A DNA stretch of 64,000 nucleotides, taken from Candidatus Omnitrophota bacterium. Lineage in GTDB: Bacteria > Omnitrophota > Gorgyraeia > Velamenicoccales > Velamenicoccaceae. The stretch spans positions 1 through 64,000 of the forward strand of contig JACRLT010000026.1 of NCBI GenBank assembly GCA_016235185.1, in the 5' to 3' direction. Position numbers and translations under genes: made by a program. The first letter of the stretch is position 1. The number at the start of each line of letters is the position of its first letter. The notes under the pieces are model-generated. The model saw nothing but the letters and a program-made list of their open reading frames with translations. It did not search any database and was not told where the DNA came from. Below, piece by piece: positions 11,215 through 20,823 of the stretch.

Positions 11215-11271
11215 TAAGTTTGTTCTTTAGATATGATCGCGGGGTGGAGCAGCCTGGTAGCTCGCAAGGCT

Positions 11272-11911
11272 CGATGGACACAAAGCTCAAAGCTGATGTT
11301 GCGGAATCAGCAGTACAAACAGAACTTCTGAAAAGAGGTTTCAGAGTACTGCAACCTGTAGGGGATCGATTACCTTATGATTTAGGTGTTGATCTTTTAG
11401 GGAAACTCATCCGTATTCAGGTGAAGAGTGCTTGGTACAATAAAAAAGATGCGTGTTATGTTGTTGATGCGCGTCGAACCAAGACAAATCGCCGAAGGAT
11501 GTTGCGGCAACGTTACAATGCCGATGATTTCGATTTCGCAATAATCTATCTCGCTGACAGGCATGTGTTCTATGTTTTGCCTATATCTGAATTTGCTCGT
11601 TATGGCAGCACCATAACATTGGTAGAATCAGATAAAAGGCAGCGTAGGCCAAGGTCAGCAGAGTATAGAGAGCGGTGGGATTTGTTGTCTAATGGGTCCC
11701 TCAGCCGGTAACGGTTGATGGAAAACCTGTCAAATTCGGTGGAACCCTAGACGTTAAGTCAAGGCAATACCGAGCCAAGTCCACCAAGAAGTACGGTGGG
11801 AAGGTGTAGAGACTAGTTGGCAGGAGTCCTTTTAAAAAGGACTAAGGTATAGTCCAGACTACAAATCTGTCAGGGATTGTGACAGAGCAGCGAAAGCTGT
11901 AGTGAGTAAAG
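11272..11911 (+). mobile_element. Group I intron in tRNA-fMet
   Basis: The 640-nt intron ends in the terminal G at 11911. The catalytic core follows the internal reading frame: P7 is GACTA (11811-11815) with TAGTC (11850-11854) inside the hallmark AAGGTATAGTCC, and P8 is the hairpin 11825-11843. The reading frame fills the 5' half, and its ATG is only 2 nt into the intron. This is the same tRNA gene type and endonuclease type as the Synechocystis tRNA-fMet intron (recalled). The subgroup (IC-like) is not resolved. Confidence 0.9.
11274..11711 (+). CDS. Group I intron homing endonuclease, PD-(D/E)XK (I-Ssp6803I-like)
   Basis: A 145-residue protein starting at ATG 11274 just inside the 5' splice site. 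It has the PD-(D/E)XK layout of the I-Ssp6803I family: Glu11 in the first helix, Asp36 in PYDLGVD, and Gln49-x-Lys51 in IRIQVKSAW, followed by YVVDARRTKTNRR. The length matches the about 150 residues of I-Ssp6803I, which cuts intronless tRNA-fMet genes to drive homing. A longer open frame starts 54 bp upstream in exon 1, but that would place tRNA sequence in the protein. Confidence 0.88.
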   Translation: MDTKLKADVAESAVQTELLKRGFRVLQPVGDRLPYDLGVDLLGKLIRIQVKSAWYNKKDACYVVDARRTKTNRRRMLRQRYNADDFDFAIIYLADRHVFYVLPISEFARYGSTITLVESDKRQRRPRSAEYRERWDLLSNGSLSR

Positions 11912-11953
11912 CATAACCTTGAGGCCGTCCGTTCAAATCGGACCCCCGCAACC

Positions 11954-11989
11954 AAATTTAAGGCCACCCTTCTGGGTGGCTTTAAATTT
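11954..11989 (+). terminator. Strong hairpin directly after tRNA-fMet
   Basis: A 16-bp stem (11954-11969 with 11974-11989, one G-T wobble) closed by the loop TTCT starts at the final A of the tRNA CCA. The right arm ends TTTAAATTT. It fits an intrinsic terminator or 3' processing signal for the tRNA. The rest of 11990-12070 has no gene. Confidence 0.75.
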
Positions 11990-12105: not shown

Positions 12106-13035
12106 ATGGCCAGACCCTATAGATTGCAAGCAGAAGGTTGTCTTTATCACATCACCAGCCGCGGTGATGACCGCAAAAAGATATTCCTCAATGAAGCCGA
12201 CTACAGAAAATTCCTCGAATACCTCAAAATAGCAAAAGGGAAGTTTAATTTCTATCTATATGCTTATTGCTTGATGGGCAATCACTATCATTTGCTTATT
12301 GAAATTACTCAAGCCAACCTGTCCAGGATCATGCAGTGCTTCAATACGGCTTATACGGTTTATTACAACGTAAAGCGCAAACGATGCGGCCATCTTTTTC
12401 AGGGAAGGTTTAAATCGATTCTCGTGGAAGCAGATAGCTATTTCGCCGAACTTACCCGCTACATCCACTTGAATCCCTCGAGGGCCAAAATGGCATCAAA
12501 TCCGGCTGAATACCGCTGGTCTAGCTACAACGCCTACATTCATGGCAAGGATGACGTTTTCATCGATATAGACAGGGCAAGGCAATTTCTCGGCATGGAT
12601 TTGCAACAATATCGTAAATTTGTGGAAGACGTAAAAGATTGCTCTGACCCTTTTAAGAATGTTTATGCAGGTTTTATATTGGGAGGCGTTAAGTTTATCA
12701 AAGATAAGCTCCATCAAATCAAAGACGAAGTTGGATCAAAAGACTTTGCTCATAAACGGGCCATAAGAAATCTTATCGATCCGGATGAAATACTGAAGTC
12801 AGTTGCTGTTTTTTTTAAGATTGATAAAGAAGAGATGCGCACCAGCATCAGCCGTCCCATGACGGCAAAAAAAGCGGCCATTTATCTTTTACGCCAAAAA
12901 ACCGGATTAACAAATGCTCAAATCGGAGCCATGTTCAATATGACTTCCGCAGCGGCCGGCATGGCGGCCGCAAGCTTTGCCAAAGAGATCGATAGGGATA
13001 AGAAGTTAAGGGTGGCGATAGGGAGGATAGTTTAA
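12106..13035 (+). CDS. REP-associated tyrosine transposase (RAYT, Y1/HUH)
   Basis: 309-residue relative of IS200 TnpA. The Y1 domain has the HUH motif in GNHYHLLIE (His60, His62) and the catalytic Tyr119 in ELTRYIHLNP; GHLFQGRFKS is typical of RAYTs. A C-terminal helical domain (about 230-300) carries TNAQIGAMFNMTSAAAG, a DnaA-C-like or helix-turn-helix segment common in this group. It is flanked by inverted GGTCAGACC ends. RAYTs process and mobilise REP palindromes. Confidence 0.88.
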   Translation: MARPYRLQAEGCLYHITSRGDDRKKIFLNEADYRKFLEYLKIAKGKFNFYLYAYCLMGNHYHLLIEITQANLSRIMQCFNTAYTVYYNVKRKRCGHLFQGRFKSILVEADSYFAELTRYIHLNPSRAKMASNPAEYRWSSYNAYIHGKDDVFIDIDRARQFLGMDLQQYRKFVEDVKDCSDPFKNVYAGFILGGVKFIKDKLHQIKDEVGSKDFAHKRAIRNLIDPDEILKSVAVFFKIDKEEMRTSISRPMTAKKAAIYLLRQKTGLTNAQIGAMFNMTSAAAGMAAASFAKEIDRDKKLRVAIGRIV

Positions 13036-13133: not shown

Positions 13134-13376
13134 ATGAATACTACTGTTCAGAAATGGGGCAATAGCCTGGCGCTGAGAATTCCGAGTTCTCTCGCCAGGG
13201 ATATCCATGTACACCAGGGATCCATAGTTGAGGTTGCCGTGGTGGAGGGTGGGATCGTTGTAAAACCCAAGGGAAAGCACAAATACTCGTTGTCTCAGTT
13301 GCTCAAAAGGATTACTGTGGATAATCTCCATTCCGAGTCCGGTTGGGGCGGCGAGGTTGGACAGGAGATTTGGTAA
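13134..13376 (+). CDS. mazE: MazE-family antitoxin (AbrB fold)
   Basis: 80-residue swapped-hairpin AbrB-type DNA-binding protein with the family start TTVQKWGNSLALRIP and VEGGIVVKP. It is predicted to bind and neutralise MazF through its acidic or disordered C-terminus and to repress the operon. It has its own near-consensus promoter and a strong ribosome site. The stop TAA shares an A with the mazF ATG. Confidence 0.92.
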   Translation: MNTTVQKWGNSLALRIPSSLARDIHVHQGSIVEVAVVEGGIVVKPKGKHKYSLSQLLKRITVDNLHSESGWGGEVGQEIW

Positions 13377-13717
13377 TGCCTCATGCACATTGCCCCAGGC
13401 GCGGCGATATCGTCTGGCTCTCATTCACTCCTCAGGCCGGGCATGAGCAGGCGGGTCAGCGCCCGGCTTTAACTCTATCCCCTGAATCTTATAACAAGAA
13501 GGTTGGTTTGGCAATATTTTGCCCGATCACTTCTCGCATCAAAGGGTACCCGTTTGAGGTGGCCATTCCTTCTGGATTAAAAATCTCGGGCGTTGTGTTG
13601 TCGGATCAAGTTAAGAGTCTCGATTGGCGAGCCAGAAGCGCTCGATTCTGTTGTCAAGTTCCAGAAGCAACCGTATCCGATGTTCTTAACAAACTCAATG
13701 TTCTGTTAAGCGTATAA
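13376..13717 (+). CDS. mazF: MazF/PemK-family endoribonuclease toxin
   Basis: 113-residue mRNA interferase. Family blocks are RRGDIVWLSFTPQAGHEQAG, RPALTLSPESYN, and the segment FCPITSRIKGYPFEV with the conserved T-S-x-x-K-G-Y-P. The start at ATG 13376 overlaps the mazE stop (TAATG), the usual coupled arrangement. The toxin is expected to cleave single-stranded mRNA when MazE is degraded. This module probably stabilises the surrounding island. Confidence 0.92.
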   Translation: MPHAHCPRRGDIVWLSFTPQAGHEQAGQRPALTLSPESYNKKVGLAIFCPITSRIKGYPFEVAIPSGLKISGVVLSDQVKSLDWRARSARFCCQVPEATVSDVLNKLNVLLSV

Positions 13718-13797: not shown

Positions 13798-16188
13798 ATG
13801 AAGTTAAAGAAAGAGCATAAGAAAACGGTGAAACTTTCCCGGACGCACAAGCCGGATGAATTAACGGTCGAGGAATGGCAGAGGGCTCTTCGCCGGGAGT
13901 TTGGCGTAATCCAGAAGTTTCGCTTAAAGAACCTTGGCGGCGAAGAGGTTTTCTCTGAGTTTGCCGTCATGAATCCGGAGACAAAGCGTACATACCGCGT
14001 GGCTGTCCGCAGTGAGCGGCCGGGTGAGAATTTTTGTTCTTGCCCTGATTTCAGCGTCAATACGCTGGGGACATGCAAGCACGTTGAATTTGTTCTTTAC
14101 CGTTTGAGGAAAAACCGCAGGCGTCGGGAATTGCTCGCCGCCGGCGCTTCTTTGCCGTATTCCGAGGTTTTCTTGCGGTACGGGTCATCCCGGCGCGTCT
14201 TGTTTAAAGCCGGCGCCGGCGCCCCAACGGTATTGAAGAGTTTGGCCGCGGATTATTTTGACCGGGATCATGTCCTGCAACAGGATTCTTTTCAGCATTT
14301 TGATGCGTTCTTGGAAAAGGCCCGCGCGCTGGATCACGATATGCGTTGTTATGATGACGCCCTGGCCTTTATCGCGGAAATCCAGGAGGCACACCACAGG
14401 CGCACACGTCTTGCCGCCGTGTTTCCCGATGGGATCAAAAGCGCGGCCTTTGATAGTCTGTTGAAGGTGCCCCTGTATCCTTACCAGCGGGAAGGAGCGC
14501 TTTTTGCTGTCCACGCGGGGCGGGCGCTTATTGCCGATGAAATGGGTTTGGGGAAGACTGTGCAGGCCATTGCCGCGGCTGAGATATTCGCCCGGGAGTT
14601 TGGCGTCCGGAAGGCGCTGATTGTGTGCCCAACATCGTTGAAACATCAGTGGAAGGACGAGATCCAGAAGTTTTGCGGGCGTTCTGTGGCCGTGGTGGAA
14701 GGCATGATCCCGTCCCGCCGCGAGGTCTATCGCAGTGAAGCGTTTTTTGTCGTGGTTAATTATGACGTAGTATTTCGCGATAGTGATCTTATCAATCAGA
14801 TGTCCCCGGATATTGTTATCCTCGATGAGGCCCAGCGTATCAAGAATTGGAAGACGCGGACAGCCCGGAGTGTCAAGGGTATCCAGTCACCGCATGCCAT
14901 TGTCCTGACGGGTACCCCGTTGGAGAATCGTCTGGAGGAACTGCATTCTATTGTCGGTTTCGTTGATCGTTTCCGGCTGGGGCCGTTATTCCGTTTCCTG
15001 GGCAACCATCAGCAGACAGCCGCGGAAACCGGAAAAGTTACGGGTTACCGCGATCTTAAGGCCATTGGGCGGACGCTGCAATCGATCCTTATCCGCCGGA
15101 AGAAATCCGAAGTCCTTTTGCAGTTGCCCGAGCGCATGGACAAAAACTTCTTCGTTCCCATGACGCCTGAACAGATGAACATCCATGAGGAAAACCGGGA
15201 GATTGTGGCCAGGATCGCGGCCAAATGGAGCAAGTACCGGTTCCTTACGGAAGCCGACCAAAGGCGGATGACCATTGCCCTGCAGTTCATGCGGATGTCG
15301 TGCGACAACGCGTACCTTATTGATCGGAAGCTGCGTTCCGGCGGAAAGGTGGATGAACTGGTTACGCTTTTGGGAGAGATCTTTGAGGAGCGGGATGCCA
15401 AGGCCGTGGTCTTCAGCCAATGGGAGAGGATGACATCCCTGGTGTCCGAGGCGTTTCACCGCAAGTCTTGGGGGCATGTGCATCTGCATGGCGGTGTCCC
15501 GGGGCCCAAAAGGAAGGATTTAATCAAGGCGTTCAGGGATGATCCATCATGCCGCGTTTTTCTTTCAACAGACGCCGGTGGCGTGGGGCTTAATCTGCAG
15601 GCCGCTTCAACGGTAATCAATATGGATCTTCCGTGGAATCCGGCGGTGCTTGAACAGCGCATTGGCCGCGTCCACCGGCTTGGCCAACATCGGCCTGTCC
15701 GCGTAGTCAATTTTATCGCTGAGCGAACGATCGAACATCATATGCTTTCAATTTTGAAGTTCAAGAAGGCGCTCTTTGCCGGCGTTCTTGACGGGGGAGA
15801 GGACAGTATTTTTATCGGGAAGAGCCGGTTGAGCGCGTTCATGGAGTCGATCCAGGAATTGTCCAAGCCTTCGAATGGCGATTCGGATGTCGGTATAGAG
15901 GGCGCTTCTAAAGAAGCGATTCGGCCTTTATTGGTTGAAACCGCAAAAAAACCCGGGGGAGATGGTTTTCCCTATCAGGATATCTTCGCGGCTGGGGCAT
16001 CGTTTTTCAAGGTATTGGCTGCGGGGTTGGAAAAACAACCGGTCACTCTCGAGAAAGACGCGGCGACCGGCCGGTCGTGTTTGAAAGTGCCGCTTCCGGA
16101 TCAGGAGATCATGCGGGGAGCTCTGCCGGCTGTGGAATCTTTTTTGGGCGCGTTGAAGAGCTATATTAAAATGGGCGACGGCACATAG
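13798..16188 (+). CDS. SWIM-SNF2 helicase-like ATPase
   Basis: 796 residues. A SWIM zinc finger (Cys80, Cys82, Cys93, His95 in CSCPDF...GTCKH) precedes a full SNF2/SF2 motor: Walker A DEMGLGKT (about 247-254), DEAQ (about 343-346), TGTPLENR, then the C-terminal RecA lobe with STDAGGVGLNLQAA and QRIGRVHRLGQ. SWIM-SNF2 proteins bind and translocate on DNA. Base composition is clearly more GC-rich than the flanking core genes, indicating transfer. It is followed 76 bp later by a GHKL ATPase on the same strand, likely one operon. Confidence 0.93.
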   Translation: MKLKKEHKKTVKLSRTHKPDELTVEEWQRALRREFGVIQKFRLKNLGGEEVFSEFAVMNPETKRTYRVAVRSERPGENFCSCPDFSVNTLGTCKHVEFVLYRLRKNRRRRELLAAGASLPYSEVFLRYGSSRRVLFKAGAGAPTVLKSLAADYFDRDHVLQQDSFQHFDAFLEKARALDHDMRCYDDALAFIAEIQEAHHRRTRLAAVFPDGIKSAAFDSLLKVPLYPYQREGALFAVHAGRALIADEMGLGKTVQAIAAAEIFAREFGVRKALIVCPTSLKHQWKDEIQKFCGRSVAVVEGMIPSRREVYRSEAFFVVVNYDVVFRDSDLINQMSPDIVILDEAQRIKNWKTRTARSVKGIQSPHAIVLTGTPLENRLEELHSIVGFVDRFRLGPLFRFLGNHQQTAAETGKVTGYRDLKAIGRTLQSILIRRKKSEVLLQLPERMDKNFFVPMTPEQMNIHEENREIVARIAAKWSKYRFLTEADQRRMTIALQFMRMSCDNAYLIDRKLRSGGKVDELVTLLGEIFEERDAKAVVFSQWERMTSLVSEAFHRKSWGHVHLHGGVPGPKRKDLIKAFRDDPSCRVFLSTDAGGVGLNLQAASTVINMDLPWNPAVLEQRIGRVHRLGQHRPVRVVNFIAERTIEHHMLSILKFKKALFAGVLDGGEDSIFIGKSRLSAFMESIQELSKPSNGDSDVGIEGASKEAIRPLLVETAKKPGGDGFPYQDIFAAGASFFKVLAAGLEKQPVTLEKDAATGRSCLKVPLPDQEIMRGALPAVESFLGALKSYIKMGDGT

Positions 16189-16264
16189 CAATGTGGTGTG
16201 AAGTGAAAATTTGAAGACATTCAACTTCGGGGCAGGCGCGTCCGAACGAAAAGGGCATGACGGA

Positions 16265-18073
16265 ATGACATCCAAAACGAAAGCAAGCCAGGGGCGTCTT
16301 CGTATCGGCGACGATTGGAATGCGATTACTATTATCGCGCTCTCTCAGAATAATCCGTTGAAAGCCATCGCGGAATTTGTGGAGAACAGTATTGATGCCC
16401 AGGCCAGCCAGGTAACCATTATTCGGGGGAAGGAACACGGCCAGCATTATCTGAAAATTATCGATGACGGCAACGGCATTCCGTGCGCGCAGGATGGTAC
16501 GCCGAACTTCGCTTATGTCGCCACTCACATTTGCGATTCTATCAAGCGCAGGATGAAACAGGAAGGCGGTTTGAATATTCAGGGAGAATTTGGTATCGGG
16601 CTTTTGAGTTTCTGGACGGTGGGGCATAAGCTGACGATGCTTTCTTCCGGGGCCGGCGGGAAAATTTACCAAATGATTATGGAGAAGGGTAAGTCCGGCT
16701 ATAGCATCATGCCGCGCGCGCATCTCTTGCCGATGAAAGGCGCCCAATTGATCATTGCTCCCCTGCTCGCCGGTATTCGTTCTCTGAGCGGCGAAAAAAT
16801 ACAGCTTTATCTGGCGGCGGAATTGCGCGACCGTATCCGGCATTCAGGCGTGAAGATCAGGATCGTGGATCACGCCGGGCATGTGGAGCTTGATGTCGAG
16901 CCGCGCCGATACTCGGGACAACTGCTTCATAATCTGCCCGTAATATCAACGCCGCTGGGAGATGTTTATGCGGAAATCTATTTGAGCGAACGCAGTCCGG
17001 AAAATGCGATCAGCCTGTTTCGCTCCGGGACGCGCGTTCTGCCGGCAATAACGACGCTCGATATTTTCCAGGGTGAGCCATGGACGTCGGGGTATTTTCA
17101 GGGAATTATCGACGCTCCTTTTTTGCACTTGACGCCCGGCACCAGAGACGGCATCATTCATGACGAAAAATTAGCGCAGTTATGCGACGCTTTGAATCCT
17201 TTGCGCGGGAAGCTGGAGGAGATTGTGCTGGCACAGAGCAGCGCCGAAGAAGAACGCGCCAGCCGGAATATTCTTCGATCGGTGCATAAGGCATTCCAGG
17301 AAGCTCTGATGGTTTTGCCTCCCGAGGAGTATGATTGGTTTGATATTCACAAGCAGGGACCGCGCGGCCAGGCGAAGCCCGGCGCTGAAGCTTCCCTGTC
17401 TTCCGTTGAGGACGCGGAAACAAAGATTCCGGCGTTCCCCGAAGCAGAACGGAATGAACCGAAACAAAAACATTTTTTTGAATTTGCGGGCGCCCTTTTT
17501 TCGGTGAGGGCTTCTCCCTCCTCCGCCCTAGTCCCTGTTTCGGAAAAGAAGACATTGCGCGCCGTGGCCAGAGATAAGAGCCGCCGGCAAATAGAGACCG
17601 GAGTGTCGTTTTCCTGGAGTATCGCGGAGGGAACCGGTAGGCTCGAGAAGCAAGAGGGAGAAATGAATATTTTTTACGCCGCGGCAGAACCGGGATTGAC
17701 CCGCTTGACGGTTACCGCCGCACAGGGGGAAATTGTATGCGAAGCGGAGAGCTTGATCACGACGGTGGATTCATTGATCAAATCCGAGTCGGATATTGAC
17801 TTGTCGCGCAAGGGATTGCCGGGTTATACGCTGGAGAGCGCTCCGGGGCAGTCGTGGCGGGCGAAATACGATACAGGCAGGAATCTGATTATAATCAATA
17901 AGGGCCACCGCGATTATGTGTATGCCGTAAAGCAGAATGCGCGCAAGGTGCGCTATATTTGCCGTTTGTACGCGAAGGAACTTGTCAGCCATAATTTCAG
18001 GGGGCTACCGGTTGATCAGTTATTGGAACATATGGTGGAGTTATCGTTGTATGCGGAAGATCATTTGAAGTAA
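16265..18073 (+). CDS. GHKL (MORC/Hsp90-like) ATPase with Ig-like C-terminal region
   Basis: 602 residues from ATG 16265 (a TTG at 16211 would add 18). The GHKL ATP-binding fold shows the N box EFVENSIDAQ (37-46), G1 box IDDGNGI (66-72) and G2 box GEFGIGLLSF (107-116). A MutL/MORC-type transducer-like segment follows, then about residues 400-500 look like a beta-rich Ig-like domain, and a basic helical C-terminus. Bacterial MORC-like ATPases are known next to helicases in restriction-type loci, so a defence or DNA-clamp role with the SNF2 partner is a reasonable inference. GC-rich like its neighbour. Confidence 0.82.
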   Translation: MTSKTKASQGRLRIGDDWNAITIIALSQNNPLKAIAEFVENSIDAQASQVTIIRGKEHGQHYLKIIDDGNGIPCAQDGTPNFAYVATHICDSIKRRMKQEGGLNIQGEFGIGLLSFWTVGHKLTMLSSGAGGKIYQMIMEKGKSGYSIMPRAHLLPMKGAQLIIAPLLAGIRSLSGEKIQLYLAAELRDRIRHSGVKIRIVDHAGHVELDVEPRRYSGQLLHNLPVISTPLGDVYAEIYLSERSPENAISLFRSGTRVLPAITTLDIFQGEPWTSGYFQGIIDAPFLHLTPGTRDGIIHDEKLAQLCDALNPLRGKLEEIVLAQSSAEEERASRNILRSVHKAFQEALMVLPPEEYDWFDIHKQGPRGQAKPGAEASLSSVEDAETKIPAFPEAERNEPKQKHFFEFAGALFSVRASPSSALVPVSEKKTLRAVARDKSRRQIETGVSFSWSIAEGTGRLEKQEGEMNIFYAAAEPGLTRLTVTAAQGEIVCEAESLITTVDSLIKSESDIDLSRKGLPGYTLESAPGQSWRAKYDTGRNLIIINKGHRDYVYAVKQNARKVRYICRLYAKELVSHNFRGLPVDQLLEHMVELSLYAEDHLK

Positions 18074-18911: not shown

Positions 18912-20768
18912 GTGACGGGCACGTGTAAACAGCTTGAGGGTGAAAGTCCCTTACCCAACCTGATGGAGGTGAAGGGTCGGCAAAGCGCAAGGGCATTTTT
19001 GCGAGGAAATGTCTGAAGGAAGCGCCGAGCAAATCACATGAGCCGATGAACAAGAACCGCATAGGAGGCGCACGCGCCGGTAGAGTTGGCTGGTTACAAC
19101 AAATACCATATCCATCAAGGGTGCAAAGCGTAGATGCGGCGGCTGTGTGTGGAAGGCGGTTTATACTTACCCCGTGAGGTCTGCGGCGTGTCGTCATCGA
19201 CTTAGCGTATCGTAAGATGCGCCCAATGCGCCGTAGAAGTCAGCAGAGAGCGTAGTACCGTAGACAACGGGAAGGCTCAAACGGTTAAAGGATAAGTAAG
19301 ACGCAGAACTTATGGACGAGCACAGGCAGAATATCCGTGAAAGGGACTTACGCAGGAATGGAAAGAGTGAAGCTTTGACCATCTTTGCGCAAGCGACCGA
19401 TACGTCCATAGCGGACTGCATATCTGAACGTCCGGCAGCAACGACGATGCTTATGGAACAAGTGTGTGCGAGTAGCAACATGGCTGGTGCGTTGAAACGG
19501 GTGCAGACGAACAAAGGGAGCTACGGAGTAGACGGTATGCACGTGGAAGAGGTAGCAGAGTACTTAAGAGAACAGTGGCCGCGGATACAGCACGAATTGT
19601 TCTCAGGTACGTATAAACCAAGTGCTGTCAGGCGCGTGGAAATACCCAAAGCATCAGGAGGGATACGTAAGCTTGGCATACCCACGGTGGTGGACAGAGT
19701 TATTCAGCAGGCGGTTTTGCAAGTGCTGCAGCCACTCTATGATAAGACATTTTCAGAGAACAGCTACGGTTTTCGTCCGGGCAGGTCAGCGCATCAGGCA
19801 GTGCTCAAGGCGCAGGAATATATACGCGCAGGGTACGCCTATGTCGTAGATATAGACCTTCAAAGCTTCTTTGATAAGGTCAACCACGACCGGCTGATGA
19901 GTCGATTGGCAAGACGGGTAGAAGATAAGCGGCTGCTAAAACTCGTCCGGGCGTATCTTAACGCTGGTATTATGGAAAACGGTCTGGTCAAACCCGCTAC
20001 CGAGGGCACTCCGCAGGGCGGTAATCTCTCGCCGCTGTTGTCAAATATCGTCTTGGATGAGCTTGACAAAGAACTCCTGGCACGAGGGCATAGGTTTGTA
20101 CGCTACGCCGACGACTGTAATATCTACGTTAAGAGTAAACGTGCAGGTGAACGGGTTATGACGGGAATAAGCCGTTTTATTACGAAACGGCTTAAGCTCA
20201 AAGTCAACCTCGCCAAGAGCGCGGTTGATATACTATCCAATCGCAAATTCCTCGGATACAGTTTTACCAAAGAGGCGGTACCCAGAATTAAAATCGCTCC
20301 TCTGGCGCTTGAGCGTTTTAAGAGACGGGTACGGGAGCTCACCAACCGGAACAAGAGGGTGAGCTTTGCAGTCTTGGTGAAAGGGCTGATGGTATATGTG
20401 CGGGGATGGATGGGTTATTACCGGCTGTGTCAGACACTATCGGTACTGACAGCCCTTGACTCATGGATACGTAGGCGTATCCGCTGTTGGTTGTGGAAGC
20501 AATGGGAAACGCTTGCCAACCGCACAGCGGAACTTGTCAAGCGAGGCGTAAGTAAGAAGGATGCACACATGACAGCGTGCAAAGGCAGAAGGTTATGGGC
20601 GACAACCAGAGATAAGTACGTGCAACTGGCGCTGCCCAATGCCTACCTGAAATCGCTGGGTATTAAGCCGTTAGCGTCGTTTATAACTGTATAATTAACC
20701 GAACCGCCGTATACGGAAAACCGTACGTACGGTGGTGTGACAGGGAAAGCGGGCGACCGCCTACCTAT
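18912..20768 (+). mobile_element. Group II intron
   Basis: The 5' end is placed at GTGAC 18912 and is followed by the typical domain I segment GCTTGAGGGTGAAAGTCCC. A reverse transcriptase lies in domain IV. Domain V is the about 34-nt hairpin around 20704-20737 (ACCGCCGT ... GGAAAACC ... ACGGTGGT), and domain VI follows, ending CTACCTAT near 20768. The exact 3' boundary is ambiguous because the domain V/VI end is duplicated in tandem. The region 18912-19311 before the ORF is intron RNA and holds no other gene. Confidence 0.82.
19312..20694 (+). CDS. ltrA: Group II intron reverse transcriptase/maturase
   Basis: 460 residues. The RT blocks run in order: YGVDGMHVEE, IPKASGGIRKLGIPTVVDRV, SYGFRPGRSAHQAV, YVVDIDLQSFFDKVNHD, GTPQGGNLSPLLSN and the catalytic RYADD (Asp267, Asp268). 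A maturase X domain (VRGWMGYYRLCQ) and a short tail follow; no HNH endonuclease is visible, so mobility would be endonuclease-independent. This, with insertion next to a hairpin, suggests a class C-like intron, not proven. Confidence 0.92.
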   Translation: MDEHRQNIRERDLRRNGKSEALTIFAQATDTSIADCISERPAATTMLMEQVCASSNMAGALKRVQTNKGSYGVDGMHVEEVAEYLREQWPRIQHELFSGTYKPSAVRRVEIPKASGGIRKLGIPTVVDRVIQQAVLQVLQPLYDKTFSENSYGFRPGRSAHQAVLKAQEYIRAGYAYVVDIDLQSFFDKVNHDRLMSRLARRVEDKRLLKLVRAYLNAGIMENGLVKPATEGTPQGGNLSPLLSNIVLDELDKELLARGHRFVRYADDCNIYVKSKRAGERVMTGISRFITKRLKLKVNLAKSAVDILSNRKFLGYSFTKEAVPRIKIAPLALERFKRRVRELTNRNKRVSFAVLVKGLMVYVRGWMGYYRLCQTLSVLTALDSWIRRRIRCWLWKQWETLANRTAELVKRGVSKKDAHMTACKGRRLWATTRDKYVQLALPNAYLKSLGIKPLASFITV

Positions 20769-20823
20769 GTCGATCGTACGGTGGTGTGACAGGGAAAGCG
20801 GGCGACCGCCTACCTATGTCGAT
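20726..20823 (+). repeat. Perfect 49-bp tandem duplication of the intron 3' end
   Basis: 20726-20774 and 20775-20823 are identical over 49 bp, covering the 3' strand of domain V, all of domain VI and 6 bp of exon (GTCGAT). Only the first copy can pair with the intact 5' half of domain V. The second copy leaves a spare domain VI and a second candidate 3' splice site. Confidence 0.92.

Follow-up and report, generated by a model that had tools for sequence, protein, structure and literature searches.

Prokaryotic GHKL ATPases of the MORC and paraMORC type were predicted in 2008, from gene neighbourhoods, to be paired with SF2 helicases (Iyer, Abhiman and Aravind, 2008; PMC2292703), and one nuclease-fused form, the GHKL-nuclease VcSduA of Shedu type I-D (paraMORC3), has now been shown to block phages (PMC12137116). 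In eukaryotes, MORC2 and MORC-1 are ATP-gated clamps that compact or entrap DNA (PMC12216690, PMC8277788). Here, we describe two genes coding for a SWIM-SNF2 protein and a GHKL-S5 ATPase, located in a 64,000-nucleotide stretch of Candidatus Omnitrophota DNA (contig JACRLT010000026.1, positions 1 to 64,000; hereafter the window) from a genome of 1.79 Mb in 55 contigs (GCA_016235185.1). The association between these two families is real and non-random, and the pair is unnamed.

The nearest published idea is that of the MORC/paraMORC-helicase systems; among tested proteins, VcSduA comes closest. With the former, the window pair shares the association of a GHKL plus S5 ATPase with a SWI2/SNF2-type helicase, as well as a sporadic, laterally mobile distribution; for those systems, a role on DNA in restriction-like conflict was proposed (PMC2292703). 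Conversely, nucleases and methylases are part of the operons predicted for those systems but are not conserved around the window pair, whose genes are mostly unlinked and whose GHKL family lacks the MORC S5 signature and displays an Ig-like plus alpha/beta C-terminus. VcSduA likewise presents an N-terminal GHKL ATPase in a single-gene arrangement, with a middle domain proposed to be clamp-like (PMC12137116); however, its C-terminus is a DUF4263 PD-(D/E)xK nuclease, and none was found in the window GHKL protein. Regarding eukaryotic MORC2 and MORC-1, the modelled GHKL-S5 fold appears similar (Z about 17-19), whereas the window protein has no CW finger or MORC signature and is remote in sequence. 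The SNF2 protein combines the two features, a SWIM finger and an SNF2 motor, by which SWIM-SNF2 ATPases of the SsoRad54/SSO1653 type are recognized (PMC5512222; PDB 1z63), but it comes from a subfamily set apart by a conserved C-terminal tail and by co-occurrence with the GHKL family.

Domain architecture of the two proteins

A preliminary description of this DNA had placed two GC-rich genes in tandem, and both open reading frames (ORFs) are present, although their guanine-cytosine (GC) content exceeds the window mean only moderately (0.54 for the SNF2 gene and 0.53 for the GHKL gene, against 0.46, with a standard deviation of 0.034 in 1-kb windows). The GHKL ORF had been read as 620 residues starting at a TTG; however, the ATG at 16265, which is residue 19 of that reading and is preceded by a purine-rich AAAGGG, is the likelier start, since homologues align from about residue 19-28. 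This ATG comes 76 bp after the SNF2 stop, with both genes on one strand, and no terminator-like or promoter-like site was found on the + strand of the gap. A ribosome-site-like sequence (AGAAGGGA) is located directly 5' of the SNF2 ATG. The genes and their domains are the following:

13798..16188, + strand: predicted SWIM-SNF2 double-stranded DNA translocase, 796 amino acids (ORF list, Pfam, homologues, structure model)
13993..14103, + strand: SWIM zinc finger, residues 66-102; ligands C80, C82, C93 and H95 invariant in 21 homologues
14482..15684, + strand: SNF2 motor with two RecA-like lobes, residues 229-629; DEMGLGKT, DEAQ and QRIGR motifs conserved
16265..18073, + strand: GHKL-S5 ATPase from its likely ATG start (the 620-residue reading starts at TTG 16211)
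16286..16900, + strand: GHKL ATP-binding domain, residues 26-230; E55, N59, D85-x-G87-x-G89 and G125-E-F-G-I-G130 invariant
16943..17170, + strand: S5/transducer-like domain, residues 245-320; R271, R275, W291 and R312 invariant
17195..17347, + strand: long helix and near-invariant EEYDWFDI motif, residues 329-379
17501..17767, + strand: Ig-like beta-sandwich in the AlphaFold2 model, residues 431-519
17822..18070, + strand: small alpha/beta C-terminal domain, residues 538-620; N558, N563, H566, D568, R581, K589 and E590 conserved

The earlier reading of the first protein as a DNA translocase bearing a SWIM zinc finger was borne out by matches to the SNF2 (PF00176, E 9e-42), helicase C (PF00271, E 2e-25) and SWIM (PF04434, 22.3 bits versus a cut-off of 19.6) families, and by intact zinc and motor motifs, with GKT, DEAQ and the motif VI QR kept across 21 homologues. 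Its best sequence match in the PDB was 1z63 (E 4e-56). The structure model, with a predicted local distance difference test score (pLDDT) of 79.7, resembles remodeller motors, among them SRCAP (Z 26.2; 4.1 Å, 435 residues), and a structure search with it identified nothing outside the motor. Similarity to components of named systems was confined to the motor region and far below the corresponding cut-offs for Zorya ZorD (128.5 bits versus an equivalog cut-off of 1500), DISARM DrmD (152.5 and 140.8 bits versus 950 and 610) and Dpd DpdE (124.2 bits versus 500); RapA reached 80 bits versus 576.

The second protein belongs to the GHKL superfamily: HATPase_c_3 was detected in it (39.5 bits versus a cut-off of 25) and in 63/63 homologues tested, and the N, G1 and G2 motifs (E55/N59, DxGxG, GEFGIG) are invariant in these homologues. 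The AlphaFold2 model, built on 63 sequences (mean pLDDT 75.9; predicted template modelling score, pTM, 0.45), displays in order the GHKL and S5-like domains, the long helix ending in EEYDWFDI, a disordered linker, the beta-sandwich and the alpha/beta domain. The model thereby supports the clamp-type architecture with an Ig-like C-terminal region that had been proposed, and places an additional small domain after the Ig-like part. For the first 350 residues, the scores against Hsp90 (Z 19.3; 3.8 Å, 290 residues), MORC3 (Z 18.9; 3.4 Å, 276 residues) and SMCHD1 (Z 18.8; 4.1 Å, 293 residues) were tied within 1 Z, and a Foldseek search against viral models yielded generic Hsp90, topoisomerase and RIIA matches.

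"MORC-like" was not sustained as a family label, as the MORC S5 signature GhXhhpXXRhl (PMC2292703) was found in 0/63 homologues by a regular expression run without a MORC positive control. The protein was also not assignable to MutL (35.6 bits over only 44 residues versus an NCBIfam equivalog cut-off of 180) or to MzaB of the MZA system (12.8 bits versus an NCBIfam cut-off of 850), and a profile-level search for the DUF4263 PD-(D/E)xK domain of Shedu type I-D/paraMORC3 found it neither in the window protein nor recurring in the 63 homologues. Consistent with what had been anticipated, the pair thus matches none of MORC, Shedu I-D, MutL, Zorya, DISARM, Dpd or MZA. A nuclease hidden in the GHKL C-terminus, for which a profile search had been suggested, was likewise discarded at the level of profiles: no Pfam nuclease was present in the window protein or the 63 homologues, and the profile of the last 195 residues matched no PDB sequence. 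Neither the GHKL nor the SNF2 protein yielded a nuclease match.

Distribution, co-occurrence and gene neighbourhoods

The GHKL family is compact and unnamed, with homologues 47-62% identical to the window protein over the full length, and since these occur in many phyla a chance ORF is excluded. Its distribution is sporadic, including Omnitrophota (source of the closest homologue), Pseudomonadota, Acidobacteriota, metagenome-assembled genomes labelled Thermodesulfobacteriota and Myxococcota, Nitrospirota-type genomes, Deferribacterota, Spirochaetota, Kiritimatiellota and Verrucomicrobiota; the gene was carried by 2/99 class relatives (window genome counted) and 1/298 other Pseudomonadota. Acidobacteriota and Pseudomonadota branches are intermixed in the family tree, which implies lateral transfer. 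A phage or plasmid origin was rejected: searches of 72,556 plasmids, 50,697 phages and IMG/VR gave no close GHKL homologue, while for SNF2 the plasmids gave no hit at E<=1e-80 and IMG/VR gave only generic SNF2 motors (26-33% identity).

The two genes are rarely neighbours: SNF2 adjoins GHKL, normally a solo gene, in 6 of ~84 GHKL loci, namely the window, three divergent pairs (L025, L053, L067), one with GHKL first (L044) and one with SNF2 first (L068). The arrangement is tandem in Omnitrophota, divergent in Alphaproteobacteria and of both orders in Acidobacteriota; adjacency arose in at least three arrangements across three phyla. Neighbour clustering of the ~84 loci gave no partner other than SNF2 (6 loci), and a conserved operon was rejected.

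For genome-level counts, SNF2 proteins were accepted as partners only if they fell in the close subfamily (45-63% identity), because a divergent SWIM-SNF2 tier (36-42% identity), found in 51/192 Desulfobacteria genomes, is common there with or without GHKL. The close subfamily was present in 20/79 GHKL-carrying genomes, and in sampled genomes in 2/298 Pseudomonadota, 0/191 of the Desulfobacteria class and 1/97 class relatives. Taking the p values as indicative only, because related genomes were treated as independent and taxa were counted by hand from record titles, close SNF2 was strongly enriched in GHKL carriers within Pseudomonadota (13/30 versus 2/298 others; Fisher p 2e-13) and within Burkholderiales (5/7 versus 8/299; Fisher p 1e-6), whereas the control PglZ, a BREX marker, was not (3/50 GHKL carriers versus 12/299; p 0.46). 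Furthermore, in 17 genomes the GHKL and SNF2 protein distance matrices are correlated (Mantel r 0.59, with 0/5000 permutations as high), which shared organism history explains in part. The preliminary description had counted rare co-occurrence as a mark against the pairing: adjacency is indeed rare, whereas co-occurrence within genomes is strongly enriched. Because the pair is visible mainly at this level, functional partners of this kind can escape operon-only searches.

Gene surroundings were compared using 140 proteins from 46 GHKL loci, 128 proteins from 20 SNF2 loci and, as a control, 123 random proteins encoded on other contigs in genomes that carry GHKL. Proximity to known defence genes, which had been proposed as a check, was evident, with 75, 81 and 5 PADLOC families matched at E<=1e-20, respectively. 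Since PADLOC models are redundant, we estimated distinct proteins from our own reading of the tallies, at ~9 defence proteins per neighbour set and none clear in the control (p ~0.004). Type I restriction-modification, AbiE, Fic and PsyrA were found near GHKL, and Wadjet JetA/JetB, AbiE, type IIG and the TOTE primase-helicase near SNF2, while many further neighbours are ordinary housekeeping genes. No nuclease or methylase is a conserved neighbour among the ~84 GHKL loci, in agreement with the earlier description of a pair that has neither, and none is fused to the two genes or adjacent to them.

Unlinked SNF2 copies at L121:1958-4786 and L126:10474-14652 adjoin a TOTE-conflict primase-helicase and a Wadjet-like JetABC set. 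A DUF4143/AAA_14 ATPase family was observed near both GHKL and SNF2, in 9 of ~105 loci (L127:1674-2804, L044:7308-8507 and seven more).

Possible roles of the pair

We tentatively favour a loosely coupled pair of translocase and ATP-gated clamp that acts on DNA, in defence or silencing, without a nuclease of its own. The SWIM-SNF2 protein would be an ATP-driven translocase tracking double-stranded DNA, and the GHKL-S5 protein would dimerise upon ATP binding, as Hsp90, MORC and MutL do, and then clamp either DNA itself or a partner bound to it; its Ig-like region and C-terminal domain are candidate contact surfaces. Foreign or aberrant DNA might be marked, held or compacted by the pair, any cutting being left to an unlinked host enzyme; given the lack of a fused or linked nuclease, the DNA may end up held or compacted, or else be passed on to such an enzyme. 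A narrower version seems distinctly unlikely: the SNF2 translocase would load an ATP-gated GHKL clamp to entrap or compact foreign DNA, and two mostly unlinked genes would thereby encode a nuclease-free bacterial functional counterpart of MORC silencing. From the earlier interpretation, the translocase and clamp architecture, the association and the defence-rich surroundings are retained; the MORC label and the conserved cassette are not, the latter given the rarity of adjacency and the ~75% of GHKL genomes without close SNF2.

That same fraction weighs against the favoured pair, as does the lack of a clear close SNF2 in any of ~18 Desulfobacteria-type carriers; the pair is therefore not obligatory, and GHKL evidently works without close SNF2 in most carriers. 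Moreover, the pair contains no nuclease or other effector, the absence of GHKL from plasmids, phages and IMG/VR and of SNF2 from plasmids is unusual for a mobile defence system, and sequence conservation is above that expected of defence genes. The counts themselves include related, non-independent genomes, and carriers were picked by peptide patterns from the window protein, which biases the sample towards its near kin.

Several of these points fit the main rival, an accessory role in genome maintenance, which we consider somewhat unlikely: GHKL would be a MutL-like sliding clamp licensing the motor, SNF2 would remodel stalled or damaged DNA complexes, and the patchy spread would follow from an optional repair module. 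The best sequence matches of the GHKL core are MutL, purifying selection is strong along its whole length, neither phages nor plasmids were found to carry it, a DinG-type helicase immediately follows SNF2 in two genomes, and the neighbours of SNF2 include RecA and RmuC genes; yet defence genes are enriched around both genes relative to same-genome controls, and occurrence is very rare and patchy. It is unlikely that the two are independent accessory genes gathering in the same kinds of island, their association reflecting shared island ecology and not joint function. They are mostly unlinked and each is often solo, integrase-like, PIN, DUF4143 and restriction genes occur near both, and L015 and L019 have GHKL proteins of 99% identity but differing SNF2 proteins; however, the same carriers show no enrichment of PglZ, adjacency recurs in differing arrangements, and the trees are correlated. 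We regard as highly improbable a reading in which GHKL serves a protein partner as an Hsp90-like chaperone or regulator and SNF2 acts on RNA polymerase, as SNF2 family proteins such as RapA do (PMC8501970). In structure searches, Hsp90s match the GHKL-S5 part best, but MORC3 and SMCHD1 score almost equally, an Hsp90-type C-terminal dimerisation domain was not recognised, and the RapA model falls far below its cut-off.

If the family keeps clamp and motor without a nuclease, DNA capture would be separable from DNA cutting. Such a family would make it possible to test a bacterial clamp for DNA silencing of the kind exerted by eukaryotic MORC proteins.

The island around the genes

As previously described, the pair sits in an island with mazEF, transposases and introns, in which MazF, Y1/IS200 transposases, a group II intron and a group I intron in a tRNA were found. 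A search for a clean empty site in the sister genome found the left (eno-tRNA) and right (PilZ) flanks on separate contigs, which leaves the insertion boundaries unfixed. Immediately upstream of the pair are the following:

13134..13376, + strand: MazE-like antitoxin, identified by inspection
13376..13717, + strand: MazF/PemK toxin

The ORF at 12106-13035 codes for a Y1 (IS200-like) transposase with a C-terminal DnaA-type helix-turn-helix (PF08299). Just downstream of the GHKL gene, a complete-looking group II intron spans 18995-20774, with its reverse transcriptase ORF at 19312-20694. A 640-bp group I intron, which carries a PDDEXK_5 (PF11645) homing-endonuclease-like ORF (11220-11711), interrupts the anticodon loop of the tRNA-Met(CAT) gene (11238-11954); in two family relatives, the halves of this gene are directly joined.

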